Shown here piece after piece: positions 5,749 to 49,057 of a stretch of DNA of 64,000 bases. The first letter of the stretch is position 1. Each line of letters starts with the position of its first letter. The notes below the pieces were generated by a model that worked only from the letters and a program-made list of their open reading frames with translations, had not been told where the DNA came from and did not search any database. The stretch comes from Methanofervidicoccus sp. A16 (lineage in GTDB: Archaea; AGJL01; Methanococci; Methanococcales; Methanococcaceae), in assembly GCF_003351865.1 (NCBI RefSeq), contig NZ_CP022242.1, positions 1,054,001 through 1,118,000 on the forward strand, given 5' to 3'. The translations under genes and the position numbers were made by a program.

Positions 5749-6454
5749 GGTCCTGTCCACATAAAACAAACATCATATATAACAATGTACATAAGATACT
5801 ATTATGCTAAGAGTAAAAGATATTATAAAGGAATTAAAAATCTTTAAGAGGAACAAAATACCTATAGAAATTAAAACACTCGCCATTGCAACCTACATTC
5901 AGACATCTTCAGTAAGAAGGACTGCCAGAATTCTTTCAGAGATTCATCCAGTCTCAAAAACATCAGTTTGGAACTGGATAAGGAAGTTTGAAGAAGAATT
6001 ATCCATTACAACAGAGGAAAGAGAAAGAGATCTAATAGCGGTGGATGAAACTGTTGTTAAAGGTGGCGGGAAGCACTATTACGTTTATTCAGCTGTAGAT
6101 GTTGAGAGGAATGAATTAATTTTAATGAGAGTCTATACAATAAGGAATCATCTAATTACGAGGTCCTTTGTAAAGAAAGTACTGAAGTACTGTAGGGGTG
6201 AGCCTAAATTCCTTATAGATAAAGCCCCATGGCTAATTAGTGCTCTAAAAAGTCTTAATTTAAACTTTGAACATCAGACCTTTGGGCGGGGGAGTTTGAT
6301 AGAATCGGTGTTTTCTTCTCTGAAGCAGAGGGTAAAGATCTTTTTCTGCTCTATTAATGCTAAAAATCCTGTTAGAAACTGGAACTTCTTTTGTAGGTTA
6401 TTTGTTCTGTATTATAATAAACTGAGGTGGTGTTTATGTTAAGTGGACAGGTCC
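5749..6454 (+). mobile_element. Complete 706-bp insertion sequence, IS6/IS240-like
   Basis: One transposase gene fills almost the whole element. The ends are imperfect inverted repeats: left GGTCCTGTCCACATAAAACA, right (read inward) GGACCTGTCCACTTAACATA. The outer limit GGACCTGTCCAC is confirmed by the second copy at 63388, whose flank differs beyond that point. No direct target duplication is visible: the left flank reads CAGATTTT and the right AAATTCTG, which are near inverted, not direct, copies. The right flank (AAATTCTGAAGGGATAGG) matches the inside of a family C repeat, so the IS probably landed in one. IS6-type is inferred from size and transposase. Confidence 0.85.
5804..6442 (+). CDS. 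DDE transposase of the IS
   Basis: 212 aa, the usual size for archaeal IS6/IS240-like enzymes. An N-terminal helix-turn-helix region (RRTARILSEIHPVSKTSVWN) precedes a DDE catalytic core: Asp in LIAVDETVVK, Asp in FLIDKAPWL and Glu in GSLIESVFSSLKQR, the last followed by the typical arginine. The frame is intact and the protein matches the second copy over all residues visible in the window, so the element has moved recently or is under gene conversion. The start ATG at 5804 has no clear Shine-Dalgarno, as is common for transposases. Confidence 0.9.
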   Translation: MLRVKDIIKELKIFKRNKIPIEIKTLAIATYIQTSSVRRTARILSEIHPVSKTSVWNWIRKFEEELSITTEERERDLIAVDETVVKGGGKHYYVYSAVDVERNELILMRVYTIRNHLITRSFVKKVLKYCRGEPKFLIDKAPWLISALKSLNLNFEHQTFGRGSLIESVFSSLKQRVKIFFCSINAKNPVRNWNFFCRLFVLYYNKLRWCLC

Positions 6455-6822
6455 AAATTCTGAAGGGATAGGGATAAAAAGTAAATAACCTTAGTTCCCA
6501 TTAAGTAGCGATTAAAGAACAGTGAAAATAAGAATCATTAAATACCATAGGATCTTTCCGGAACCCTTAGTTAAGATAGGAGATCTTATTTCTGAATCCC
6601 TGTATTAAAAGATATTCAGAGGATCATTCTCCTTCGATCTTCTTATTAAAATTTTTGTACCTGGGGTAATAGAAGTTTTCTGTTTTTTAAACATTTTCTT
6701 TATTTTTATTATTATTTTTGGAGCTATTCTTTTGATGGGAACTAGGGTTATTAACTATATTCCCCGATCTTTTAGAAATCTCTCTAAACACTAAAAGCAT
6801 ATTTTTCCTGTATAAATAGTCC
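6455..6822. other. Spacer between IS and hemB, filled by a family B repeat
   Basis: The first 33 bases are a family C remnant interrupted by the IS. A complete family B repeat occupies 6488-6748. About 70 AT-rich bases with no visible feature remain before the hemB stop. Confidence 0.6.
6488..6748 (+). repeat. Family B repeat, complete
   Basis: Inverted ends CCTTAGTTCCCATTAAG and TTTTGATGGGAACTAGGGT. The core has GGATCTTTC, GATAGGAGATCTTA, AGATATTCAGAGGATCATTC and GTAATAGAAGTTTT. Related copies: 8173, 16828, 35921, 55125 and, inverted, 53933, 59709, 62812; an internally deleted copy is at 14079. Confidence 0.78.
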
Positions 6823-7797
6823 TTACTTAAGATACTCACAAACTTCCTTAGCCCAATAGGTAATTATGAAGTCAGCTCCAGCCCTTTTGATACAGAGAAG
6901 TACTTCCATTATAGCATCCAATCTATTTATCCATCCTTTCTGGGCGGCAGACTCCACCATAGAGTACTCTCCACTTACACAGTAACTTCCAACAGGTACA
7001 TTGAAGTTATCCTTGGCCAACCTTAGAACATCTAAATAAGGTAATCCAGGTTTTATCAGTATCATATCTGCCCCTTCCTCTATATCCAACTCTATCTCCC
7101 TTAAAGCCTCCCTCCAATTTCCAGGATCCATTTGATAGGTCTTTCTGTCCTTTAAACCACACCTGGGAGAACTCTCTGCAGCATCCCTAAATGGCCCGTA
7201 GAAGGCAGAGGCGTACTTTACAGCATAACTCATAATACATACATCATGGTAGTTGTTCTCCTCCAAGGTTTCCCTTATAGCCCTAACCCTCCCGTCCATC
7301 ATATCAGAGGGTGCAACAACATCTACACCACTCTCAGCGTAGGACAGTGCTACCTTAGATAGGATTTCAAGGGTTTCATCGTTTAGAACTTTGTTGTCCC
7401 TTAGAATACCACAATGTCCATGGGTTGTATATTCACATAGACAGGTATCTGCTATAACGAGGATCTCATCTCCCAACTCCTCTTTTATTCCCTTTATAGT
7501 CCTCTGTATTACTCCATCTTTATCGTAGGCAGAGGATCCGTACTCGTCTTTGTACTTAGGTATTCCAAAGAGTATAACTCCAGGGATACCTAGATCTGCT
7601 ATTTCCTTACACTCTTCGATGGCAGATTCTACACTGAACCTGTATTGGTTAGGCATGGAAGGTATTTCTTTTTTTCCTCTCTCTATCCTCTCATCTACAA
7701 ATAGAGGCATTATAAGATCCTTCTTAGTTAAGGTAGTTTCCCTAACTAACTCCCTTATTTTATCGTTCTTTCTAAGTCTCCTGGGCCTGATTAACAT
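6823..7797 (-). CDS. hemB: Delta-aminolevulinate dehydratase (porphobilinogen synthase)
   Basis: Condenses two 5-aminolevulinate molecules to porphobilinogen, upstream of HemC. The 324 residues show the zinc site with Cys119, Cys121 and Cys129 ([14 protein letters not shown]) and the two active-site lysines, Lys194 in [16 protein letters not shown] and the Schiff-base Lys249 in [12 protein letters not shown]. The N-terminal RPRRLR and PLFVDE segments are typical. A purine-rich AAGGGGAT lies just before the ATG. It stands alone on the minus strand; the other tetrapyrrole genes of the window are elsewhere. Confidence 0.96.
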
Positions 7798-7863
7798 ACT
7801 ATCCCCTTCTTATTTTTAAAATTATTTATACTATTTATGTTTAGTTGTTAATAAATTAATAAT

Positions 7864-8068
7864 ACTTTAGTTCCCATTAAGATAGTGATTAAAAGAATAA
7901 TAAAAATGATTATTATAATAAAAATAATAAAAAAAGTTATATAATAAAATGTAATAAAATTCCGATAGAGGCAAAAAAGTAAAATAATATTGGATACTGG
8001 ATAAACAAGTAAGATGCCTTTTTAATTTCTTTTTATTCTTATTATCACTTTGGTAGGAAGCAGGGTTT
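7864..8068 (+). repeat. Family C repeat, complete
   Basis: Left end CTTTAGTTCCCATTAAG, right end CTTTGGTAGGAAGCAGGGT. The core signature is AATAAAATTCCGATAGAGGC, AAAAAGTAAAATAATATTGG and ATACTGGATAAACAAGTA. Other copies: 13913, 16650 (inverted), 54168 (inverted), 63028. Confidence 0.72.
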
Positions 8069-8088
8069 AAAAAATAATAATGAAAATA

Positions 8089-8171
8089 ACCCTAGTTCCC
8101 ATCAAGATTGTGATTAGAAGGATAAATAAAAATATCATAATAAAAATCTTAAGAGGAATAATAAAATAATA
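8089..8171 (+). repeat. Family C repeat, truncated form
   Basis: CCCTAGTTCCCATCAAGATT left end, ending at AAGAGGAATAATAAAATA where family B begins. It has the same breakpoint as the copy at 1411-1505. Confidence 0.6.
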
Positions 8172-8172
8172 T

Positions 8173-8473
8173 AACCTAAGTTCCCATCAAGTAGTGATTA
8201 AAAGAACAATAAAAATAATAATCATTATAATAATAAATACTATAACAAAAAACCATTAAACATTCCAGGATCTTTCTGAGCACTTAGATAAAGATAAGAA
8301 ATCCATCTGATATCACATATTAGAAGGTATTTAGAGGACCATCCCCTCCAATCTTCTTTTTAAAATGTTATATCTGAGATGATAGAAGTTTTTATTTTAA
8401 AATCTTTTATTATTTTTTATTATATTATTTTTATAATTATTCTTTAAACTATTCTTTTGATGGGAACTAGGGT
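8173..8473 (+). repeat. Family B repeat, complete
   Basis: Ends AACCTAAGTTCCCATCAAG and CTTTTGATGGGAACTAGGGT. The core includes GGATCTTTCTGAGCACTTAG, TAGAAGGTATTTAGAGGACC and GAGATGATAGAAGTTTTTAT. Confidence 0.78.
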
Positions 8474-8540
8474 AATGAAAATAATAACAAAAAAATATGT
8501 GAAACATTACTTGTTTCTCTAAAGTGTCCAATGTAGTCTA

Positions 8541-8696
8541 GGAAATAGCAACCTGTTAGGAAGGATCTGTTCTACCCCTATAGTATCTTAGAGTATCTAG
8601 GAGGGGTTATTTATCTCTTATTAGTACCTTCTTATACTTTTATTATTTTATAATTTGTTGTAGTTCTTATCAATTTTTTTGATAGGAACTAGGGCT
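8541..8696 (+). repeat. Family A repeat, left end missing
   Basis: Core ATAGCAACCTGTTAGGAAGG, TATCTTAGAGTATC, TTATTTATCTCTTATTAG, then right end TTTTGATAGGAACTAGGGC. The left terminal segment is replaced by a C-like fragment. Confidence 0.65.
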
Positions 8697-8875
8697 AATA
8701 ATATTTAAAATTAATAAAAATTATTATATTATTTATAAAAAATCTACATGAAACTGAGAAAATACCAGAATAACTTATTATTTTTTATTATTTTTATTAT
8801 TTTTTGGATTATCCTTTTGATGGGAACTAGGGTTTTTTATACTTTTTACTTTTTATTATTATAATAATTATTTTT

Positions 8876-9730
8876 TTACTCTACTATCAAGGAGGCATAT
8901 CCAACAACAGAGGAGTAATCCTTAGTAATATCTCCAGAGGTAGCGTAGGCCAGTAATCTTACATCCCCTGCACCAAGTTCCTTCATGGCCCTTATCATGG
9001 CCATGGTAGGCCCATAACCACACATGGTTATGTTATTATTTACCACAGTGGTATATAGTTCCCTCTCATCCATATTTAGTATGGCCCTTATTGCCAGGGC
9101 GTCCTTCTTCGATGCTATATCTTGGGGCTCATAGTGGCTGAAATCTGTAGATGCTATTATTACTACCCTTCTATCTAACTCCATAGATACCTTTGCTATA
9201 GAATGCCCAACCTCTATGGCGGTCTCATAGTCCTGCATCATCATAGATATAGGTACTATTTTGAAATCTACAGGGTGCAACATACTTAGATGCTGGAGGA
9301 AGGGAAGTTGAACCTCTATGGAGTGCTCCCTAAGGTGGGCACTTTCATCTAAATCTAAGATATCGCAGTTCCTCCATAGTCTATCTATAAACTCATCGTC
9401 TGTCTTCACATCTCCCAAGGGCGTTCTCCATATGCCCTTCATAGTGGAAACTCCAGAACCTAATCCTGTATGGTTAGGCCCTAAGATTACAACTGTAATC
9501 TTTCCATCTACTCTAGAGGATAGAGCCTTATAGGAGTGGGCTGCAACAGGACCAGAGTATATATATCCTGCATGGGGACAGACTAAACCTATAGGTTTCC
9601 TAAAGACTCCTCCTGTTGGAAGGGAACCTGGACCTAACTCGTGAAGATAGCAGTACTCTATCAACTCTATTAACTCATGAGGATCTGAAGGGTAGAACAT
9701 ACCTGCAACTGCAGGGTACCTTATTACCAT
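8876..9730 (-). CDS. MEMO-family protein (AmmeMemoRadiSam system protein B)
   Basis: 284 aa, matching the MEMO1/MJ0403 family, a dioxygenase-like fold with a metal site. The conserved elements are the N-terminal [38 protein letters not shown] and CGYGPTMAM, which bring together the conserved histidines and cysteine. In many archaea it accompanies an AMMECR1 gene and a radical SAM gene; neither is adjacent here. The archaeal function is unknown, so I assign only the family. The ATG follows GGTGAT closely. It is divergent from the HcyBio gene with a 77-nt gap holding both promoters. Confidence 0.88.
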
Positions 9731-9807
9731 ATCATCACCTTATAGTTAATTTTATATTAATTATAATTATTATCTCTATTGCTTAAATATGTGCTATAGG
9801 GATTACC

Positions 9808-11346
9808 ATGAAAACCATCAGAGAGATCAACGAGAAGATAAAAAAAGGGGATGCGGTAGTGTTGACAGCGGAGGAGATGATAGAAGTTGTAGAGGAGATG
9901 GGACCTGAAGGTGCAGCAAAGGAGGTAGATGTTGTCACAACTGGTACCTTTGGAGCCATGTGTTCCAGTGGAGTGTTTCTAAATTTCGGTCATGCAGATC
10001 CTCCAATAAAGATGATGAGAACCTATCTAAATGGAGTGGAAGCCTACTCGGGACTGGCAGCAGTTGACGCCTACCTTGGTGCTGCACAGCCGAACTCCGA
10101 TGACGATATAGATATCAACTACGGTGGAGCCCATGTTATAGAGGATCTTGTAGCAGGAAAGGAGATAAGGCTCCTTGCAGAGGGATATACAACTGACTGT
10201 TATCCGAGAAAGAGGGTATCAACAACTATAACATTAGACGACCTAAATCAGGCGATAATGGTAAATCCAAGGAACTGCTATCAAACATATGCCGCAGCTA
10301 CAAACAGTAGGGATGAGAAGATATACACCTATATGGGCACCTTACTTCCAGAGTACTCCAACATAAACTACTCAGGGGCAGGACAGTTGAATCCTCTCCA
10401 AAACGACTACAACAGGGAGAAGAAGACCTTCAACACCATAGGCATAGGTACTAAGATATTCTTAGGTGGAGGTATTGGATATATAATAGGAGAAGGAACA
10501 CAACACGACCCAGAGAAGGCCTTTGGAACCTTAATGGTTAAGGGAGACTTAAAAACTATGAGTACTAAATTTTTAAGGGCAGGTACTATACCTAATTACG
10601 GATGTACCCTATACGTAGGCATAGGTATACCTATCCCAGTACTAAATGAAGAGGTTGCAAGGGCCTGTGCTGTAAGGGATGAGGATATCGAGGTACCTAT
10701 CTTAGATTATGGAGTGCCGAGAAGGGATAGACCTGTGGTGGCAAGGACAAACTACAAGGAACTTAGAAAGGGAGAAGTTACTATTAAGATATACGACAGT
10801 GAGTTGAAGAAATGGGTGGAAAAAACTGTTAAGACAGCCTCTGTCTCAAGTTATAAAAAATCTAGAGAGGTTGCAGAGGAACTTAAAAAGTGGATACTAA
10901 AGGGAGAATTTACACTTTCGGAGCCAGTTGCTCCCTTGGGAAGAGGTTCATGTAAGCCTATGAAGGCAGAGGCCAAGTTGGTAAGGGATATCCTCAGTAG
11001 ACCGCCAATTGTGGCTAGACCAGATATATCTATAGAGGAGGCTGCCAGGATACTTACTGAAAAGAATATTAATCATTTGCCTATCGTAGATGGAGAGGGA
11101 AGATTATTGGGAATAGTAACATCCTGGGACATTGCAAGGGCTGTAGCCCAGAATATAAACTCCATTTGCGAGATCATGACAAGGCGAGTTATCAGTTCCA
11201 CATTGGATGAACCTATAGATGTTGTGGCGAGGAAGATGAGTAGATACGATATATCTGGAGTACCGGTATTAGATAAGAATGGAAAAGTTGTAGGAATAGT
11301 AACTGCCGAGGACCTCTCGAAGTTGCTGGGATATAGGAAATTTTAA
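9808..11346 (+). CDS. Homocysteine biosynthesis protein, HcyBio domain plus CBS pair
   Basis: 512 aa. Residues 1 to about 375 form the HcyBio (former DUF39) domain, shown in methanogens to be needed, with a NIL-ferredoxin, for making homocysteine from aspartate semialdehyde and an unidentified sulfur donor. Cysteines candidate for sulfur handling include [17 protein letters not shown] and NYGCTLYVG. Residues about 390-512 are two CBS motifs ([20 protein letters not shown] and [20 protein letters not shown]), probably a nucleotide-sensing module. The architecture equals MJ0100 of Methanocaldococcus. The start has a weak Shine-Dalgarno (AGGG). The NIL-ferredoxin gene follows at 14 nt, so the two form an operon. 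Confidence 0.9.
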
Positions 11347-11360
11347 CTCTGGTGAAAACT

Positions 11361-11762
11361 ATGAAGAAGAGGATATACTACTGGGTATACGAGAAATACA
11401 TAGATAAACCGGTGATATCAAAGGTTATCTTAGAGACGAAGGTTATGATAAACATCTTAATGGCAAAGATGAACCCTCAGGAGAGTTTCCTAATCTTGGA
11501 GTTAAGTGGAAATGAGAAACAAATCGAAGAAGCACTAAATCTGTTGAAAAAGTACGGTGAGTATGAAGATATTCCAAAGATAATAGAGAAAAATAAGGAG
11601 AAATGTATAGACTGTGGAGCATGTGTAGTACACTGTCCTGTTAAGGCCATATCTCGAGATGAGGATTACAGTATAGTATTTAATGAGAAGGAGTGTATCG
11701 GATGTAAAAACTGTGCTAAGATATGCCCTCTTAAGGCTATAGAGGTATTTGATTTTTATTAA
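11361..11762 (+). CDS. NIL-domain ferredoxin, partner of HcyBio
   Basis: 133 aa. The N-terminal half (to about residue 77) is a NIL ligand-binding domain (KRIYYWVYEKYIDKPVIS and later LELSGNEKQIEEALNLLKKY). The C-terminal half has two [4Fe-4S] motifs, CIDCGACVVHCP and CIGCKNCAKICP. It is the MJ0099 type, an electron donor and sulfur-transfer partner of the preceding HcyBio protein. The ATG at 11361 is chosen because GGTGA is 5 nt upstream; the GTG at 11352 overlaps it. Cotranscription with the HcyBio gene is inferred from the 14-nt gap. Confidence 0.9.
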   Translation: MKKRIYYWVYEKYIDKPVISKVILETKVMINILMAKMNPQESFLILELSGNEKQIEEALNLLKKYGEYEDIPKIIEKNKEKCIDCGACVVHCPVKAISRDEDYSIVFNEKECIGCKNCAKICPLKAIEVFDFY

Positions 11763-12014
11763 TAAAAAATTATTAAAATAATTATAATTATTATAATAAT
11801 ATAATAAAAAATAAAATCAAAAATAATAATTATCCTAAATAAAAAGAAACCTATCCTTGTATCTTGATATACAGTAGGGCACTAATGGGAGATTCTTAGG
11901 ATTTTTGTTTAACCTCTACTATTTTTTTATTATTTACTTTTTTAATACTTTTATTTTGAATCATGGATTTAAATATTGTTATAATAAAAAGAATAAAAAA
12001 TAGGTGATGGAGGT

Positions 12015-12932
12015 GTGAGTATATTAGACTTAGTTGAATCTGTTAAACAAATGAAGGACAGGGACTGGAAAATCCTAAGGATAATAGAGATATCTATGAG
12101 AAACCATGAATGGGTGCCTGTAGATGAGATAATTAAAAAATCTAAGTTAGACAGTAAGGAGGTGCTATACAGGTTAAAGGTACTTGATAGACATAAGTTT
12201 GTAAATAGGAGTACCTATGGCTACAGGTTATCCCATAAGGGATACGATGGGTTGGCACTGAATGCATTTATAAAGAGGGATCTTATAAAGGCTATAGGCA
12301 GTAAGTTAGGTGTGGGAAAGGAGGGGGATGTATATACAGTACTACTAACTAACAACAGGGAGGCAGTTTTAAAGTTTCATAAGTTGGGGAGGACATGTTT
12401 CACAAGAGGGAAGAGGTACAGGCTATACCTGGCAGATAAGAGGCATATAAGTTGGCTCTACGCCTCGAGATTGACGGCAGAAAGGGAGTTCCAGGTGTTA
12501 AATGACCTGTATCCAGTTGTAAAGGTTCCTGAGCCCATAGATCAAAATAGACATGCTATTGTTATGGGTAAGTGGGATGGAGTGGAGTTGAAGAGGGTGG
12601 ATCTAACTAAGTTAGAGATAGATATTAAGGGACTATTCTGGGACATTGTTGAGGAGATAAAGAAGATGTACAACATTGGATATATCCATGGAGATCTCAG
12701 CGAATTCAACATACTGATAAATGAAGAGGGAGATTTTCTGATAATAGACTTTCCACAGGCTATAGAGGTTAGGGAGGGTAAGGTAGTGTTGGATATTCTA
12801 CCTGGAGAGTTTAAGATGGATGTTGAGTACTACCTAAAGAGGGATATAGGGAATGTACTTAGGTACTTTAAGAAGTACGGTATAAAAGAGAGTGTAGATG
12901 AAATATATAACTACGTTGTAGGTAAGATCTAA
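12015..12932 (+). CDS. rio2: RIO2 serine/threonine kinase-ATPase
   Basis: Ribosome assembly factor acting on late 40S/30S-type pre-subunits. The N-terminal winged helix (residues 1-90) is characteristic of Rio2. The kinase core has the glycine-rich loop GVGKEGDVYTV, lysine in AVLKFH, the catalytic loop YIHGDLSEFN and the metal-binding IDFPQA, the Rio version of DFG. Length 305 aa is usual. It starts at GTG, with GGTGAT 6 nt upstream. The methyltransferase gene begins 2 nt after its stop, which suggests joint expression in ribosome biogenesis. Confidence 0.95.
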   Translation: MSILDLVESVKQMKDRDWKILRIIEISMRNHEWVPVDEIIKKSKLDSKEVLYRLKVLDRHKFVNRSTYGYRLSHKGYDGLALNAFIKRDLIKAIGSKLGVGKEGDVYTVLLTNNREAVLKFHKLGRTCFTRGKRYRLYLADKRHISWLYASRLTAEREFQVLNDLYPVVKVPEPIDQNRHAIVMGKWDGVELKRVDLTKLEIDIKGLFWDIVEEIKKMYNIGYIHGDLSEFNILINEEGDFLIIDFPQAIEVREGKVVLDILPGEFKMDVEYYLKRDIGNVLRYFKKYGIKESVDEIYNYVVGKI

Positions 12933-12933
12933 T

Positions 12934-13599
12934 ATGAAAAAGAAATACCTGGAGATAATACTGGATAACTTAGATCCTCATCCAAATCCAAAACCTCATT
13001 TAGAACAGTACACCATAGGAGGAAAACTTGCCAGTGAGTTGTTGTTCTTTGCAAGGGAGGATATAAAGGATAACTTTGTGGTGGATTTAGGTTGTGGGAC
13101 TGGTAGGTTGTCTATAGGAGCAAAACTCCTTGGGGCGAGGAAGGTTTTAGGTATAGATATAGATAGAGAATCTGTAGAGTGTGCCAGGGAAAATCTTAGG
13201 AAGTTGGAGAAGATACCTGTAGTAAAAAACTTAGGTGTAGATTTAGAAGAGATTCTTAAAAGTGTACTTTTCATAAATATGGACGTTAAAGATATAGATA
13301 GTGAGTATATAAAGAAGTACTTAGATGATAAAATGGAGGTTGTAGTAATACAGAACCCTCCCTTTGGATGCCAGAGGAGACATGCAGATAGGATATTCCT
13401 AGATAAGGCACTGGAGATAGGAGATGTTGTATATACCATCCACAACTCTTCAACTAGGGACTTCGTGATAAATTACGTTGAAGGGAAAGGGAGGAATATC
13501 ACCCATATCTTTGAGAGTAGATTTAGGATACCGAGGATCTACAGTTTTCACAGTAAGAGGTGTGTGGAGATACCTGTAGATATTTACAGGATAGAGTAG
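12934..13599 (+). CDS. METTL5-like N6-adenine RNA methyltransferase
   Basis: 221 aa class I SAM methyltransferase. SAM motif I is VVDLGCGTGRLSIGAKLLGA (about 49-68), the acidic residue follows in GIDIDRE, and the catalytic motif IV is QNPPFGCQ, the NPPF variant of base-amino methyltransferases. The N-terminal PHPNPKPHLEQYTIGGKLA is typical of the METTL5 group, which in eukaryotes modifies an adenine of 18S rRNA; the archaeal target (16S rRNA) is inferred. The tight link to RIO2 supports a role in small-subunit maturation. Confidence 0.88.
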   Translation: MKKKYLEIILDNLDPHPNPKPHLEQYTIGGKLASELLFFAREDIKDNFVVDLGCGTGRLSIGAKLLGARKVLGIDIDRESVECARENLRKLEKIPVVKNLGVDLEEILKSVLFINMDVKDIDSEYIKKYLDDKMEVVVIQNPPFGCQRRHADRIFLDKALEIGDVVYTIHNSSTRDFVINYVEGKGRNITHIFESRFRIPRIYSFHSKRCVEIPVDIYRIE

Positions 13600-42661: not shown

Positions 42662-42943
42662 ATGGTTGTAGCGCTAGATGTGAACGGTAGAGATATATCT
42701 ATAGGTTCCTATGTAAGATACATAAATACAGGTACTACAGGTATTGTAAAGAATATTTTAGAGAAGGAAGGAGAGATCTGGGTACTTTTAGATAACGATC
42801 TGATGTATAAACCTGAAAAATTAGAGATCATTGAATATAAGAAAAAAGAAGATAGAGTAGTTAAGGAGAAAATAGAGGATATTATTGAAAAAGAGGAAAT
42901 AAAAGATATAGAATCAAATATAGACGCCTGTGGTGCTGGATAG
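42662..42943 (+). CDS. DUF2098 family methanogen protein
   Basis: 93 aa. VNGRDISIGSYVRYINTGTT, GIVKNILEKEGEIWVLLDND and YKPEKLEIIE form a small SH3/KOW-like beta barrel, the DUF2098 domain conserved in methanogens. The remaining 35 residues are a charged helix ending in IDACGAG. Function is not known. The start ATG has GGTGA 4 nt upstream. It is divergent from the rRNA operon and convergent with the SelA-like gene. Confidence 0.85.
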   Translation: MVVALDVNGRDISIGSYVRYINTGTTGIVKNILEKEGEIWVLLDNDLMYKPEKLEIIEYKKKEDRVVKEKIEDIIEKEEIKDIESNIDACGAG

Positions 42944-42984
42944 ATCCCTTATTTAAAAATTAGTTAAGAATAAATAAAATTATT

Positions 42985-44058
42985 CTATCCTTTAATCTTT
43001 TGATAAGAGTCTAGTATAGCATTCAGTATATAAGTATCCGATATCCTAGAGGCATCCTTGGAACAGAAATCTATTCTTAAGGTTTTACTAGCACCAGGCA
43101 TTCCTGCCGCTGTAATAGTTATTATACCGTAGTTTTCTAAGAGTTTCATTGCCAACTGGACGGACTCTTCCTCTGACAGTGATGTTATGGCAAATCCAGT
43201 AGGTGTTCTCTCACTTTCTATCCCTACTGAAGTTAATGGTGTTAGATCTATTTCCCTCGCCCTATTAAATGCCTCTCTCAATTTCTGGAAACTAAAACTC
43301 TCCAATGCATTTACCATACCTGCTAAAACTGGTGCCTGGGCTTCCAATCCATACTTTAAACCTTCCTCGTATATAGTATCCACTAGATCTATATCTCCAG
43401 CCAAGAGACCAGCCCTTGGACCATCCATTAACTTATCTGTACTTGTAACCACTAAATGAGCATTTAGTTTTAAGGCTGGAGGCTGATTATAGAGTAACCT
43501 CAACCTAGCTCCCGAGGCATCATCTATAAAGGATATACTGTCTTTTTTACTACATTGAGAAAGTATATCCTTAAGGTGTTTTATATCTACTACTTTATGG
43601 TCCATAGTGGCCCCAGTTATAATAGTTAGGGTATTTTTATCTATTCTATTTAAAATCTCCCCTACATTATCACTTTCAAAATATGGAATATCAAATATCT
43701 TGCAACTCCTTGGAATAGAAGGATGGGATGGTCTCTTCGGCAGATAGTGTATTACTTCATCTATCTCCTTAGATAGTGCCATTATAGTAGAGAGTATTGC
43801 TGAAGAGGTTCTATTAAATCCCACTGCTTTATGAATGTTAGGATCACCTCCTAAGTGTTGAAGTCCTACCTTATTCAACTTCTCTGAGAATACAGCGGGT
43901 CCTATGTAAGTATCTAGTATATCCATGTCAGTTTTTTTCAACTTAAATCCTCCACTCATACCTGTAAGATCGTATAAGTACTCTCTACCTTTTGTTTCTA
44001 TAATATTTAGTATTATTTCTCTAACTTTTTTTATTCTCTCCATTTCTGAATTTATCAT
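42985..44058 (-). CDS. PLP-dependent SelA-like enzyme (MJ0158 family)
   Basis: 357 aa fold-type I PLP enzyme. The Schiff-base lysine is in TSTDKLMDGPRAGLLAGD, the SelA-like GPRAG motif. GATMDHKVVDIKHLK and FIDDASGARLRL hold the cofactor aspartate. The family (TIGR03576) resembles bacterial selenocysteine synthase, but the archaeal member MJ0158 was reported inactive in that reaction, and archaea use PSTK/SepSecS instead. A real function is unknown. I start at ATG 44058 with GGTGA 5 nt upstream; GTG 44067 is inside the Shine-Dalgarno. Confidence 0.85.
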   Translation of the reverse strand: MINSEMERIKKVREIILNIIETKGREYLYDLTGMSGGFKLKKTDMDILDTYIGPAVFSEKLNKVGLQHLGGDPNIHKAVGFNRTSSAILSTIMALSKEIDEVIHYLPKRPSHPSIPRSCKIFDIPYFESDNVGEILNRIDKNTLTIITGATMDHKVVDIKHLKDILSQCSKKDSISFIDDASGARLRLLYNQPPALKLNAHLVVTSTDKLMDGPRAGLLAGDIDLVDTIYEEGLKYGLEAQAPVLAGMVNALESFSFQKLREAFNRAREIDLTPLTSVGIESERTPTGFAITSLSEEESVQLAMKLLENYGIITITAAGMPGASKTLRIDFCSKDASRISDTYILNAILDSYQKIKG

Positions 44059-44364
44059 TGACCTCACCGATATACTTTTTCTTATTAAAAATAATTATTA
44101 TAGTAAAATAGTATTTAAAAAAATCTAAATTTACTCCAATAATTCAATAAATTATTATAAAAGTGGTAAAAAATAACCACAATTTTCTATTTTTTTGAGA
44201 GAAACTTTTATAACAAAGTTTTATTTTGGTATACTTGTTTTAATATGGATACAAAGAGTAATATAACATAAATGCTTATAATATAAAGTAATTTTTTAAT
44301 TATTATTTTTTATATTTGAGATTAAGTATATTCTAACATTCGGTAAATTTTTTTAATAAGTATA
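44059..44364. other. 0.3-kb spacer at the left edge of the accessory island
   Basis: AT-rich, with none of the dispersed repeats A-D. ACTTTTATAACAAAG near 44204 could be a promoter element. Nothing else is recognisable. Confidence 0.4.
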
Positions 44365-45486
44365 GTGCAAAATTCAAACTCCCAATTTCATAGGAGATTA
44401 CAGCGTTTTATGGCCGAATTCGACCCATCTCCACGAATGATAAGACAGAGGGCTCTTTTAGAGTTTATAAACACTAAACAAATGAGTATCGAAGATAGGC
44501 TAAAATTAGAAGCTCTTTTTAGCTACTATCTCGGTGTTATTGACTCTAAAACTATAGTACTCTATAATAGATCCCAGGAAACCTTATTGAAGCTCCCCTA
44601 TTTAACTAGATTTAATAGTGAGAGTAATCTTTACAGCAAAATAGACCAACTATATACTTTATTTGAGAATGCTATAGAGAAGCACGTAGATAAGAGAGGA
44701 AAAGGAGATGCCGTTTTTTTAACCTTAACTTTGGACCCTAAAAACTTTAGAAATATTGTAGATGCGTCTAAAGAATCTCCTAAAGCCCTAAATAGGTTTT
44801 TTTCATTCATAAAAAAGAGATTAAAGAGCGAATACGAAAAATTAAAGATTAAATGCAAAAAAGAAAAACTGAAAAAGGAAGTTAGAAAGAAATACATAAG
44901 TAGGCTTAAAAAACTAAAGAAACTGGTAAAAAAACTGGATTATATCAACGTTGTAGAGTTTCAACGTAATGGAATGGTTCATTTCCATATCGTTATATTT
45001 GGTATTGACTGGTTAATTCCACAGAAAGAGTTATCTAAAATCTGGGAAAAATACGGAATGGGAAAGATAGTTCATATTTACCGTTTAAAGTTTAGTGATA
45101 ACGAAGGAGATTTTATATTCTACAAAAATAAACCAAAAAACACCAAAACCAACAGTATAACTGATTATCTAACAAAATACCTAAAAAAGGCGTTTTATGA
45201 TAAATCTGAACTGTCTTTATTCTGGTTAACTAATAAAAGATTTTTTACTTATAGCAGATCTTTACTTAAAAAAGAGGAAAAGGAAATACCAAAAATAAAA
45301 TTGAGTAGATGGGAGTTTATTGGAGTTTTCGATACTGATATTTTTGATAGATACACCGATGAGGAGTTTATAGAACTATTTGTATATAAAATCCGTCGAT
45401 ACCGTCGGAGGATTAAGTTTACTCCATTCTGTCCAGTAGGGAGTAATACTGTGGTACATGTGTGGGACTATGGACTGTCATTTTAG
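44365..45486 (+). CDS. rep: Rolling-circle replication initiator (HUH endonuclease)
   Basis: 373 aa Rep. The three conserved motifs of HUH initiators occur in order: motif 1 VFLTLTLDP (about 126-134), motif 2 GMVHFHIVIFG with the metal-binding HxH (about 206-216), and motif 3 ITDYLTKYLKKA with the nicking tyrosine and following lysine (about 270-281). A basic helical insertion (many Lys, 155-195) separates motifs 1 and 2. It would nick a plasmid origin and prime rolling-circle replication. The GTG start at 44365 lacks a Shine-Dalgarno; ATG 44410 is an alternative. The frame is intact. The most similar plasmid group cannot be told from sequence alone. Confidence 0.85.
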   Translation: MQNSNSQFHRRLQRFMAEFDPSPRMIRQRALLEFINTKQMSIEDRLKLEALFSYYLGVIDSKTIVLYNRSQETLLKLPYLTRFNSESNLYSKIDQLYTLFENAIEKHVDKRGKGDAVFLTLTLDPKNFRNIVDASKESPKALNRFFSFIKKRLKSEYEKLKIKCKKEKLKKEVRKKYISRLKKLKKLVKKLDYINVVEFQRNGMVHFHIVIFGIDWLIPQKELSKIWEKYGMGKIVHIYRLKFSDNEGDFIFYKNKPKNTKTNSITDYLTKYLKKAFYDKSELSLFWLTNKRFFTYSRSLLKKEEKEIPKIKLSRWEFIGVFDTDIFDRYTDEEFIELFVYKIRRYRRRIKFTPFCPVGSNTVVHVWDYGLSF

Positions 45487-45585
45487 TTCAAAAACATGAC
45501 GTCGACGACACTATCGACACCACCACCGTATTATTTGAATATATTATATAGGGAGTGCTGATTTCTTCACCTTTATAGTGCTTAT

Positions 45586-45612
45586 AGTGGTCTTATTCTA
45601 CATAAGAACACT
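45586..45612 (+). promoter_or_regulatory. Hairpin between rep and the next gene, candidate nick site
   Basis: AGTGGTCTTAT-TCTAC-ATAAGAACACT: an 11-bp stem with one mismatch and a 5-nt loop, 100 nt after the rep stop. Rolling-circle origins often expose the nick site in such a loop; it could equally be a terminator-like structure. Confidence 0.45.
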
Positions 45613-45664
45613 TAGAACATAGGGAGATTTTGACTGATATTACTATACTATAGGGAGGGAAATT

Positions 45665-46174
45665 ATGGAGTGTAAAACCTATTGTTCCATAGGTGAGGAT
45701 GATATACAGTGGAAAATAAAAATACCACACACTGTCTGTAGAGCATTATATAACTCTGTATTTATAGCCCAATTTGATGTGTTTAAACGTGCTGGTTTCT
45801 CAATAGCTTTTGGTATAATGATAACCTGTGAAGTTGATAAAGAGGAGGTATTGATATGCGAAGAGAGTGTATTTTTAACTAAGGAGGAGTTTAAAAAACT
45901 TATTGAACTGTTTGAGGAGGCATATAGTAAAATGGATGAAATATTAGATTCAAAACTTTTGGATATAACTGTACCCAATCGACCCCATGGTGTATTTCAT
46001 GACTCTGTAGGAGTAATAATATTAGGTACTTCTGCAGTATTGTTTATCAACCATAAATTTAAAACTGGAGAGACAACCGAAACGATCTACGGGATAAGAA
46101 TATTTATAAAAAAAGAGGACTTCGAAAAACTTATTGAGTTTTTAAAGGAGGTTTATAATAAACTATTATTTTAG
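45665..46174 (+). CDS. Unknown protein with duplicated half, in the Rep island
   Basis: 169 aa, no family recognised. It appears built of two related halves: each has a beta-rich stretch (SIAFGIMITCEV; VGVIILGTSAVLF) and then a similar helix, FLTKEEFKKLIELFEEAYSK at about 77-96 and FIKKEDFEKLIEFLKEVYNK at about 147-166. The strand-plus-helix pattern with (T/K)KE(E/D)F.KLIE faintly recalls PC4-like single-strand DNA-binding domains, which would suit a rolling-circle replicon, but this is speculative. Good Shine-Dalgarno (AGGGAGG) before the ATG. Codes on the same strand as rep. Confidence 0.7.
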   Translation: MECKTYCSIGEDDIQWKIKIPHTVCRALYNSVFIAQFDVFKRAGFSIAFGIMITCEVDKEEVLICEESVFLTKEEFKKLIELFEEAYSKMDEILDSKLLDITVPNRPHGVFHDSVGVIILGTSAVLFINHKFKTGETTETIYGIRIFIKKEDFEKLIEFLKEVYNKLLF

Positions 46175-46179
46175 TATAT

Positions 46180-46890
46180 CTACTCCCAGAATACTGGGAT
46201 AGAGAATACTGAATACCTACTCCAGAGTACTGGGATATGGAGTACTGGATACTTACTCCCAGTACTGGGATAGAGAATACTGGATATCTACTCCCAGAAT
46301 ACTGGAATATGGAGTACTGGATATCTGGAATAAGCACCTACTCCAGAGTACTGGAATATGGAGTACTGGATACTTACTCCAGAATACTAGATAGAGAATA
46401 CTGAATACCTACTCCAGAGTACTGGAATATGGAATACTGAATACCTACTCCAGAGTACTGGAATATGGAATACTGAATACCTACTCCAGAGTACTGGAAT
46501 ATGGAATACTGAATACCTACTCCAGAGTACTGGAATATGGAATACTGAATACCTACTCCAGAGTACTGGAATATGGAATACTGAATACCTACTCCAGAGT
46601 ACTGGAATATGGAATACTGAATACCTACTCCAGAGTACTGGAATATGGAATACTGAATACCTACTCCAGAGTACTGGAATATGGAATACTGAATACCTAC
46701 TCCAGAGTACTGGAATATGGAATACTGAATACCTACTCCAGAGTACTGGAATATGGAATACTGAATACCTACTCCAGAGTACTGGGATAGGGAGTACTGG
46801 ATATCTGGAATAAGCACCTACTCCCAGTACTGGGATATGGAATACTGAATATCTACTCCCAGAATACTGGGATAGAGAATACTGGATACC
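46180..46890. repeat. 0.7-kb tandem array of 36-bp units
   Basis: Ten perfect head-to-tail copies of a 36-bp unit occupy 46409-46768 (unit starts CTACTCCAGAGTACTGGAAT and ends ATGGAATACTGAATAC). Each unit is two related 18-bp halves, each with a (A/G)(A/G)TACTG core. On both sides (46180-46408, 46769-46890) the pattern continues in diverged copies at the same 18-bp rhythm. Two of these hold the perfect palindrome CCCAGTACTGGG (46258-46269, 46823-46834). The segment GGATATCTGGAATAAGCAC occurs at both 46318 and 46798. It looks like an iteron or partition array; the array is not a gene. Confidence 0.9.
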
Positions 46891-47002
46891 TATAAAACAT
46901 ATATTTCTACCAACTACCATCTACTACTATAAATTAAATCATTGGTAATTGCTTAAGCGATATAGGGATTTTAAAAAAATAGGGAATATTACAGTAGTTG
47001 GG

Positions 47003-47317
47003 ATTTTTTGACTACTAACGTGTTTCTCTATTTTTTATATTCTGGAATAGATATCTTGCTATCTTGATTTTTTGAGTAATTCTTTTTATTGAATACTGTG
47101 ATTTTGTGGTTAATGTAAATCTGTGAGTACTTCAATTTTGAATTAATTCAATTTTAAAATAATGCAATCTTGAATTAATTCACTTTTTTGAGTAATTAAC
47201 TTTTTAAAATAGTCCAGTTTTTTGAATATCCAAATTTTTGGACATTTTTGACAAAATAGTTTCATTTTTGGCTAATGTGTCTCATTTTTGAAACAACTGT
47301 TTCATTTTTGAAACTAT
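47003..47317. repeat. Cluster of TTTTTGA motifs with short palindromes
   Basis: About nine TTTTTG(A/G) motifs on the plus strand within 315 bases (for example at 47004, 47068, 47183, 47218, 47235, 47245, 47263, 47284, 47303). The last three extend to TCATTTTTG, two of them to TCATTTTTGAAAC; GTTTCATTTTTGAAAC (47299-47314) is a 6-bp hairpin. Spacing is irregular, 10 to 115 bases. Possible protein-binding sites next to the 36-bp array. Confidence 0.55.
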
Positions 47318-47382
47318 AAACTATTTATAGAAGATTATTGTAAAATTGACAGCAAAAAATAGCCTCTCTTAAGAACCGAAGT

Positions 47383-47421
47383 AGTTATAAAAAAATAGTG
47401 GGATCCCTTACAGGGATCCCA
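47383..47421 (+). promoter_or_regulatory. TATA-like element followed by a GGGATCCC hairpin
   Basis: GTTATAAAAAAATAG at 47383-47397 is followed by TGGGATCCC-TTACA-GGGATCCCA (47399-47421), a perfect 9-bp stem with a 5-nt loop. Because GGGATCCC is itself a palindrome, the site is both a direct and an inverted repeat. Candidate double-strand origin, operator or structured leader. Confidence 0.5.
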
Positions 47422-47477
47422 TAACCACAACGGAAAGGATACCACAAAGGTACACGGAGGTGTATGGGGTGTATAAT

Positions 47478-47741
47478 ATGCACGACCTCCCTATTTATGA
47501 CATTATAAAAAATTACATAAAAACTTACTGATTAAGAAGTTTAAAATCAGCAACGTAAAACATAGATTTGGAACACTCTATATTTAAATTTGTGTATTAT
47601 GAATGGATAGAGTACCGTATAGGTATCTATGCCAGAATTATCCTTAATAAAATAGAAAAGAAAATAAAGCGTAAACAAAGAAAAGAAAGAAGGACATTTG
47701 ATTTTAACCATACCCTCCGAACACTAAATCCTACTACTTAA
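47478..47741 (+). pseudogene. Possible decayed small gene of the island
   Basis: Starts MHDLPIYDIIKNYIK after GGGGTG, then the reading continues only by changing frame: LLIKKFKISNVKHRFGTLYI, then (from 47592) VYYEWIEYRIGIYARIILNK followed by the basic IEKKIKRKQRKERRTFDFN. The last part alone is an open 49-codon frame. The amino-acid-like composition across two frame changes suggests a former DNA-binding or plasmid protein of about 85 residues, broken by frameshifts. Chance cannot be excluded. Confidence 0.3.
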
Positions 47742-47803
47742 CTTGTATTATTTATTATTCTTGTATTTTGATAGAATACTATACTAGAGTTTAAAGGGAT
47801 ATT

Positions 47804-49057
47804 ATGACCTTGGTAGAAGAGATATTATCTAAAAAATTGGGAAGAGATACCTATGAGGGAGATACAATAGAGGTAGATATAGATCTGGCGATGACCCACG
47901 ACGGTTCTACACCACTGGCTACAAAGGCTTTTAAGAAGATAACTGATAGAGTTTGGGATAGGGAGAAAATAGTAATAGTCTTTGATCACAACATCCCTGC
48001 AAATACTGTAAAGGCTGCAAATATGCATAAGATTACAAGGGAGTTTGTAAGGGAGCAGGGGATAAAGTACGTATATAGGGAGGGGGAGGGTATATGCCAT
48101 CAGGTGTTGATTGAGAGGGGACATGTAAAACCTAACATGGTTATCGCTGGAGGGGACAGCCATACCTGTACCCACGGCGCCCTCGGTGCATTTGCAACAG
48201 GATTTGGGGCTACAGATATGGGCTATATATTTGCAACTGGTAAAACCTGGATAAAGGTACCTAAGACTATAAGGGTTAATATTGAGGGGAGTAACGATAG
48301 GATAACCTCTAAGGATATAGTACTTAGGGTTTGTAAGGAGATTGGAAGGAGGGGAGCTATATATATGGCTATAGAGTACGGGGGAGAGGTTGTTAAGAGG
48401 ATGGGTGTAGAGGATAGGGCGGTACTCTGTAATATGGCTGTGGAGATGGGGGCGAAGGTTGGTATTGTTGAAGCAGATGAGAGAACCTACGAGTATCTAA
48501 GGGGGAGGATAAGTAATGAGGAGTTGGCCTATCTTATGAGAAATAGAATATCTGTAGATGAAAGGGAAGAGAGTTATTATAAAACAGTAAGTATAGACAT
48601 TACAGATATGGAGGAGCAGGTTGCATGTCCTCACTATCCAGATAACGTTAAACCTGTATCTGACGTAGTAGGCACTCCTATAGATCAGGTGTTTATAGGT
48701 TCCTGTACAAACGGGAGGTTGGGAGATCTTAGGATGGCTGCAAGGTATCTAAAGGGTAAGAGGGTACACAGGGATGTAAGGTTAATTGTTATCCCTGCCT
48801 CGAAGAGGGTATTTGAGGATGCTTTAAGGGAGGGTCTGATAAAGATATTCCTCGAGGCTGGTGCTATTATATGTCCTCCAGGTTGTGGCCCATGTCTCGG
48901 TGCCCATCAGGGTGTTTTAGGAGATGGTGAAGTATGTCTCTCTACCTCTAACAGGAACTTTAAAGGTAGGATGGGTAGTACTAATGCAGAGATATATCTC
49001 TCATCTCCAGTGATTGCAGCGAAAAGTGCTGTTAAGGGATATATAACGAATGAGTGA
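47804..49057 (+). CDS. hacA: Homoaconitase large subunit (HacA/LeuC family)
   Basis: 417 aa. Dehydratase/hydratase carrying one [4Fe-4S] cluster. Cluster cysteines are in GSCTNGR and CPPGCGPCLGAHQG. Substrate loops include AMTHDGSTPLA, GGDSHTCTHGALGAFATGFG and MGSTNAEIYL. The sequence is nearer MJ1003 (HacA, which extends 2-oxoglutarate to 2-oxoadipate and 2-oxosuberate for coenzyme B) than to the LeuC paralogue, notably in DLAMTHDGSTPLA and DITDMEEQVACPHYPDNVKP. The small subunit (HacB) is not adjacent, as usual in this order. No clear Shine-Dalgarno; the gene lies just right of the accessory island. Confidence 0.85.
   Translation: MTLVEEILSKKLGRDTYEGDTIEVDIDLAMTHDGSTPLATKAFKKITDRVWDREKIVIVFDHNIPANTVKAANMHKITREFVREQGIKYVYREGEGICHQVLIERGHVKPNMVIAGGDSHTCTHGALGAFATGFGATDMGYIFATGKTWIKVPKTIRVNIEGSNDRITSKDIVLRVCKEIGRRGAIYMAIEYGGEVVKRMGVEDRAVLCNMAVEMGAKVGIVEADERTYEYLRGRISNEELAYLMRNRISVDEREESYYKTVSIDITDMEEQVACPHYPDNVKPVSDVVGTPIDQVFIGSCTNGRLGDLRMAARYLKGKRVHRDVRLIVIPASKRVFEDALREGLIKIFLEAGAIICPPGCGPCLGAHQGVLGDGEVCLSTSNRNFKGRMGSTNAEIYLSSPVIAAKSAVKGYITNE

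Follow-up and report, generated by a model that had tools for sequence, protein, structure and literature searches.

A pTP2-like rolling-circle replicon in the chromosome of Methanofervidicoccus sp. A16, possibly integrated at its own Rep nick site

A kinship with rolling-circle replicons is assumed for IS91 elements and for Helitrons. The closest free relative of the locus described here is plasmid pTP2 of Thermococcus prieurii (2038 bp), the prototype of one of the two families of small rolling-circle plasmids in the Thermococcales (PMC6972569). The pTP2-type cluster of Reps also includes proteins of some pleolipoviruses (PMC6668415), and matches to these were obtained here too. In archaeal rolling-circle plasmids that use Rep74 or Rep75 the origin, GGGTTTATCTTG/ATA, lies within the 5′ part of the rep coding sequence (PMC9569500), and the origin of pC194, TATTAT|CAAGATAAGAAAGA, corresponds to such a CTTG site read on the complementary strand (PMC5037232). 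A mapped nick site for the Rep family of pTP2 was not found in the literature, nor was a report of archaeal plasmids integrating via their own Rep.

The window, a stretch of 64,000 nucleotides (G000:C1:1054001-1118000) from the complete chromosome of 1.504 Mb, contains an element for which sequence comparison supports the description as an integrated, partly decayed rolling-circle replicon. Its features are the following.

44366 to 47745, plus strand: the whole integrated element, 3380 bp, with ends TGCAAAATTC ... TTAACTTG, delimited by comparison with genome G001 and by the same end sequences in genome G004
44365 to 45486, plus strand: rep, for an HUH Y2 rolling-circle initiator of 373 aa from a GTG start, with PF23343, phrog and pTP2 matches and invariant motifs
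45665 to 46174, plus strand: orphan ORF of 169 aa, an open frame with two similar halves as judged by eye
46176 to 46892, unstranded: tandem array of 717 bp, about 19 units, mostly of 35-37 bp
47005 to 47311, plus strand: field of TTTTTGA/G motifs, recognised from the motif count against expectation
47399 to 47421, unstranded: hairpin TGGGATCCCTTACAGGGATCCCA with perfect 10-bp arms, z = -4.1
47568 to 47745, plus strand: remnant of a small basic ORF, which in a circular form would end shortly before rep
47742 to 47745, plus strand: CTTG at the right end, which with 44366 (TG...) would form the junction AACTTG|TGCAAAATTC

The initial annotation, made from the window alone, had placed the element at 44365-47741, within 4 bp of the ends found by comparison. 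It had also described an intact HUH Rep with its motifs, a small protein on the same strand, a TTTTTGA field, two strong hairpins and a broken small frame, all of which are found again here. The repeat array that it reported is present as well, but measures 717 bp instead of 711 bp, with units mostly of 35-37 bp in place of 18/36 bp.

The homology with G001 stops sharply at 44366 and 47745, and the DNA outside is unrelated. The element is flanked by a PLP-enzyme gene (42985-44067, minus strand) and a leuC-like gene that starts at 47804 (plus strand). It is somewhat AT-rich, with a GC content of 0.33 against 0.36 for the window. The dispersed repeats of the window had been noted as missing between 44.1 and 47.8 kb; with our own repeat definition (14-mers with at least 4 G/C and at least 4 copies in the window, array excluded) no recurrent 14-mer was found there. 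One of the dispersed repeats, TTTGATGGGAACTAGGGTT, occurs with variants in the spacers at 1715, 6731, 8456, 8816, 14226, 16391 and 62816, and a related copy is present in G001 in the spacer downstream of topA. An empty site for the window locus was not found among congeners, where the two flanking genes are not neighbors and the gene order is shuffled. The PLP-enzyme gene bordering the element is MJ0158-like and is inverted relative to its DUF2098-like neighbor (42662-44067). In most congeners that have both genes these stand in tandem, while they are convergent in the window and in G007, which has the same inversion without the element.

The rep frame is open throughout, and the motifs TLTLDP, HFH and YLTKYLKK of its product are invariant in the alignment. 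The G of the GTG start codon is the flanking base; an ATG at 44410 is the alternative start. A Pfam scan returned REP_ORF2-G2P, RepSA, Helitron_like_N and GPA, with REP_ORF2-G2P (PF23343, 1.7e-12) above the cut-off and the Helitron-like PF14214 (1.2e-4) below it; the same scan gave no match to Y2_Tnp, the IS91-type transposase. The phrog matches were phrog_12863 (1.6e-22) and phrog_3419 (1.9e-9), the latter annotated as rolling circle DNA replication initiation. Rep carries the tyrosine pair of the Y2 class as Y268 and Y272, invariant in seven sequences, and like the Rep of pTP2-like plasmids it is a two-tyrosine HUH protein of the pTP2/ORF2-G2P type. A dN/dS of about 0.2 (window versus G001, 79 codons) indicates that Rep was under purifying selection in the past. 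When the Rep profile was compared with the sequences of solved structures at E 0.01, only the Helitron transposase Helraiser (PDB 7lcc_A, E 0.0016) matched. A fold predicted without alignment was too poor to use (pLDDT 43).

Relatives of this Rep occur in four of 36 Methanococcales genomes (G000, G001, G004 and G020) and gave a match in seven of the 394 archaeal genomes searched. The identity to the window protein is 89% in G001, where the gene lies at a contig end, and 46% in G004, while G020 has two loci. The closest free relative is the Rep of pTP2 (tblastn 3e-29, 33% identity). A weak match in G008 (E 3.6e-4) was dropped, as it falls on an aspartate-kinase-like gene. Scans of viral and genome contigs with Rep or the alignment yielded nothing close and one distant Methanomassiliicoccaceae locus, and a search for a free circular copy by its junction pattern in viral contigs gave 14 hits, none of which encodes a Rep relative. 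The captured-plasmid reading of the initial annotation agrees with this restricted occurrence, with the relation to pTP2 and with the G001 copy, which lies elsewhere with the same ends. The opposite picture, one chromosomal place in all relatives and no plasmid homologues, was not found. From the database search that it had called for, Rep emerged with a plasmid relative and the 169-aa protein with no match.

Comparison with G001 and G004 shows, at the level of sequence, that related elements occupy two other loci in two other species of the genus. In G001, which like some of the other relatives is a draft genome, the left end is on contig C72 and the right end on contig C163, and the middle is not in the assembly. 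The left flank matches the G004 DNA directly upstream of a DUF2112 gene (76% over 119 positions, 7e-18), the DUF2112 gene forms the right flank of the G001 element, and the joined flanks were aligned to G004. Because the two flanks are contiguous in G004, C72 and C163 carry the left and right ends of a single insertion that is absent from this place in G004. At single-base resolution the empty site is blurred by AT-rich indels, and no CTTG is present at the aligned position. The element of G004 itself is 1930 bp long, lies on the minus strand and runs from TGCAAAATTT to TTTAACTTG. It is flanked by a C-terminal part (PF21818 positions 42-127) and an N-terminal part of a DUF6884 gene, and with the flanks joined the PF21818 match improves to 3.4e-13. 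The splitting of this gene by the element is well supported, although the join does not recreate the gene exactly: there is a one-base frame difference and, as read by eye, about 10 extra bases. Next to the split gene lie an apparent type I restriction-modification cluster and what seems to be a gene for a DNA glycosylase (L011, 7988-10310).

In its size of 1930 bp the G004 element fits a plasmid of about 2 kb like pTP2, which it also resembles in the Rep and in having small ORF(s) ahead of rep when circular. In contrast, pTP2 is free, its upstream ORFs have no detectable sequence relation to that of the elements, and it lacks the orphan gene and the 717-bp array by which the window element is larger.

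The elements of the window, G001 and G004 were all opened shortly before rep at one common bond, AACTTG|TGCAAAATT, and each would read TTAACTTG|TGCAAAATT if circular. In such a circle the small ORF would end a few codons past the junction (with CKIQTPNFI and a stop in G001, CKISNFS and a stop in G004) and rep would start at or near it. The 17-bp would-be junction TTAACTTGTGCAAAATT is common to the elements although the adjacent sequences of G004 and the window have diverged. CTTG occurs, on both strands, four times in the 3380-bp window element and six times in that of G004. Opening after CTTG at random would have P 0.0012 in the window and 0.0031 in G004, values that are no more than indicative, since the ends were already known when the motif was noticed and the copies in G000 and G001 are related; the comparison covers three insertions, two of them in close kin. 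Archaeal Reps of the pGT5 type nick at CTTG|, as happens in bacterial pC194, and the junction has both this tetranucleotide and a similar place relative to rep in common with origins of the Rep74/Rep75 type. The gene A protein of phiX174 cuts after CAACTTG. We propose that AACTTG|TGCAAAATT is the Rep nick site, that is, the double-strand origin.

The chromosomal sides of the joins have no such common feature. The targets ATAG|TA, CACA|TT and ACAG|TG are three unrelated sites without CTTG and without a common att core of more than 3 bp, and the joins show microhomology of one to three bases (GT, T and GTG). The window and G001 elements have no direct repeat at their ends, and G004 is ambiguous in this respect. 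No integrase is seen in the fully sequenced elements of the window and G004, and the two main ORFs of the former have no integrase match. As far as can be judged by comparing the three copies, this shows insertion at unrelated sites with a fixed opening of the plasmid and no integrase of its own.

In view of the above, we hold with moderate confidence that a pTP2-like rolling-circle plasmid was integrated without an integrase at its own Rep nick site, following a logic like that of IS91. In this mechanism Rep would nick the double-strand origin at AACTTG|TGCAAAATT, and integration would start from the cut strand. With its two active-site tyrosines Rep could then join the nicked plasmid strand to a chromosomal cut, as IS91-type transposases do, at targets of presumably little specificity; in the window the small plasmid would have been inserted upstream of the leuC-like gene. 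We infer that Rep makes the opening, and it probably also makes the join. The targets without CTTG, unlike those of IS91-type elements, speak against this mechanism. In the circle the small upstream gene would adjoin rep, and integration would move the two to opposite ends, a separation that may switch the replicon off until excision. This resembles proviruses of the SNJ2 type, whose replication operon becomes functional only once circularisation has assembled it (PMC13107129) and in which genes that are adjacent at the replication genes in the circle are likewise separated by integration. SNJ2 differs in having a Rep of another family (Rep-Arvir) and in using an integrase.

A second explanation retains the opening by Rep but not the joining. 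Cutting or stalling of Rep would linearise the plasmid at the nick, and host repair would join the captured debris to the chromosome via the 1-3 bp microhomology. The same opening in all three elements, the short microhomologies, the lack of a common target and of a clear target duplication, and the possible extra bases in G004 would all be consistent with this. Three elements with exact, untrimmed ends exceed what is expected from broken-end repair, however, and we regard such a capture as unlikely.

An IS91-like transposon, for which we see a small probability, would end in ...TTAA and always insert beside a host CTTG (CAAG on the other strand). The CTTG at all three right ends could then belong to the target rather than to the element; CAAG belongs, with GAAC, GGAC and CGAC, to the target tetranucleotides of IS801 (PMC3189936), and the IS91 family makes no direct repeats (PMC5714925). 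A circle minus CTTG would moreover give rep an ATG start (TTAATGCAA). The elements have in common with IS91, IS801 and ISCR a two-tyrosine HUH enzyme, the absence of an integrase and of a clear target duplication, a fixed opening, and CTTG/CAAG at the junction. They differ in that Rep falls outside the Pfam family of IS91 transposases and that the element looks like a whole plasmid, its nearest free relative being a replicating plasmid of about the size of the G004 element. The empty G001-type locus in G004, with no CTTG at the aligned place, also argues against a host tetranucleotide.

Integration by a recombinase since lost, or supplied by another element, is still less probable. It would fit the related elements of G020 and G316, which have this kind of Rep, are likewise chromosomal and carry tyrosine integrases (in G316 by reading). 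Against it stand the lack of an integrase in the window and G004 elements, the missing att core and the three unrelated targets; the G020 and G316 elements also differ in Rep ORFs that are extended at the N-terminus, and both an integrase and virion-like genes are missing from the window element. An old resident, non-mobile gene cluster, to which at most the purifying selection on Rep would point, can be set aside in view of the different locations in G000, G001 and G004, the absence from most relatives, the sharp ends and the plasmid homologue.

Returning to integration at the Rep nick site, a wider claim can be made tentatively, namely that Rep is an integrase for archaeal rolling-circle plasmids that cuts CTTG|TG and transfers the strand to unrelated sites, so that the nick becomes the ends and replication is silenced until re-circularisation. 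If true, such a plasmid would represent a living intermediate form that links rolling-circle plasmids to transposons of the IS91/Helitron kind. It would also explain how plasmids without an integrase persist in the chromosomes of thermophilic methanogens, and would point to an origin sequence for a small vector in these organisms. Three elements of one plasmid kind, with one apparent nick and three chromosomal places, make a concrete system in which this can be tested.

For the orphan 169-aa protein no relatives were found in the genus, plasmids, phages or viral contigs, no Pfam match exceeded the cut-off, and the AlphaFold model was unreliable (pLDDT 37). The array has ten identical units in a row at its center between diverged outer units, some of which contain the palindrome TCCCAGTACTGGGA; this central identity suggests a recent expansion. 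With no match in the genus and one weak 25-bp match elsewhere (G031), the array is unusual and specific to the G000 genome. It may act as a partition site, bind Rep or have no role, and the iteron-like reading given in the initial annotation gained no support. TTTTTG(A/G) occurs nine times in 46.9-47.4 kb against 0.86 expected, a count reached in 0 of 1000 shuffles. The hairpin at 47399-47421 is a candidate single-strand origin or terminator, and a second hairpin lies at about 46974-47036 (z = -3.6); an Rfam search returned nothing. The small ORF lacks 58 bp relative to G001, apparently through a deletion between short direct repeats as read from the alignments, and by this loss the window copy is decaying although Rep is intact. 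The G001 ORF also shows a frame change there, either real or an assembly error, and its fragment is 48% identical over 42 aa to the intact G004 ORF (E 4e-10). Assignment of the small ORF as a winged-helix protein was rejected, as it found no backing when profiles were compared with those of the N-terminal domains of Reps. The non-coding region that separates rep from the small ORF is rich in repeats and hairpins in both the window and G004, which has a different repeat region at the place of the array, with a perfect 23-bp inverted repeat.

Several more distant loci were seen along the way. In G020, of another genus of the family, a provirus-like cluster (L012, G020:C2:222000-238000, about 5852-13578) combines the same kind of Rep with a tyrosine integrase, an AAA ATPase and several small proteins, and a second pTP2-like Rep lies beside a tyrosine integrase at a contig end (L013, G020:C12, 9667-11852). 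Distant Reps of the family in G309 and G242 (L111 and L113) stand beside runs of small membrane-type proteins, and these loci are possibly undescribed archaeal virus-like elements. In pTP2 (L038, 791-1549) the rep frame is missing from the PLSDB gene table, and two upstream ORFs have a near-identical stretch in common, which suggests a tandem duplication.
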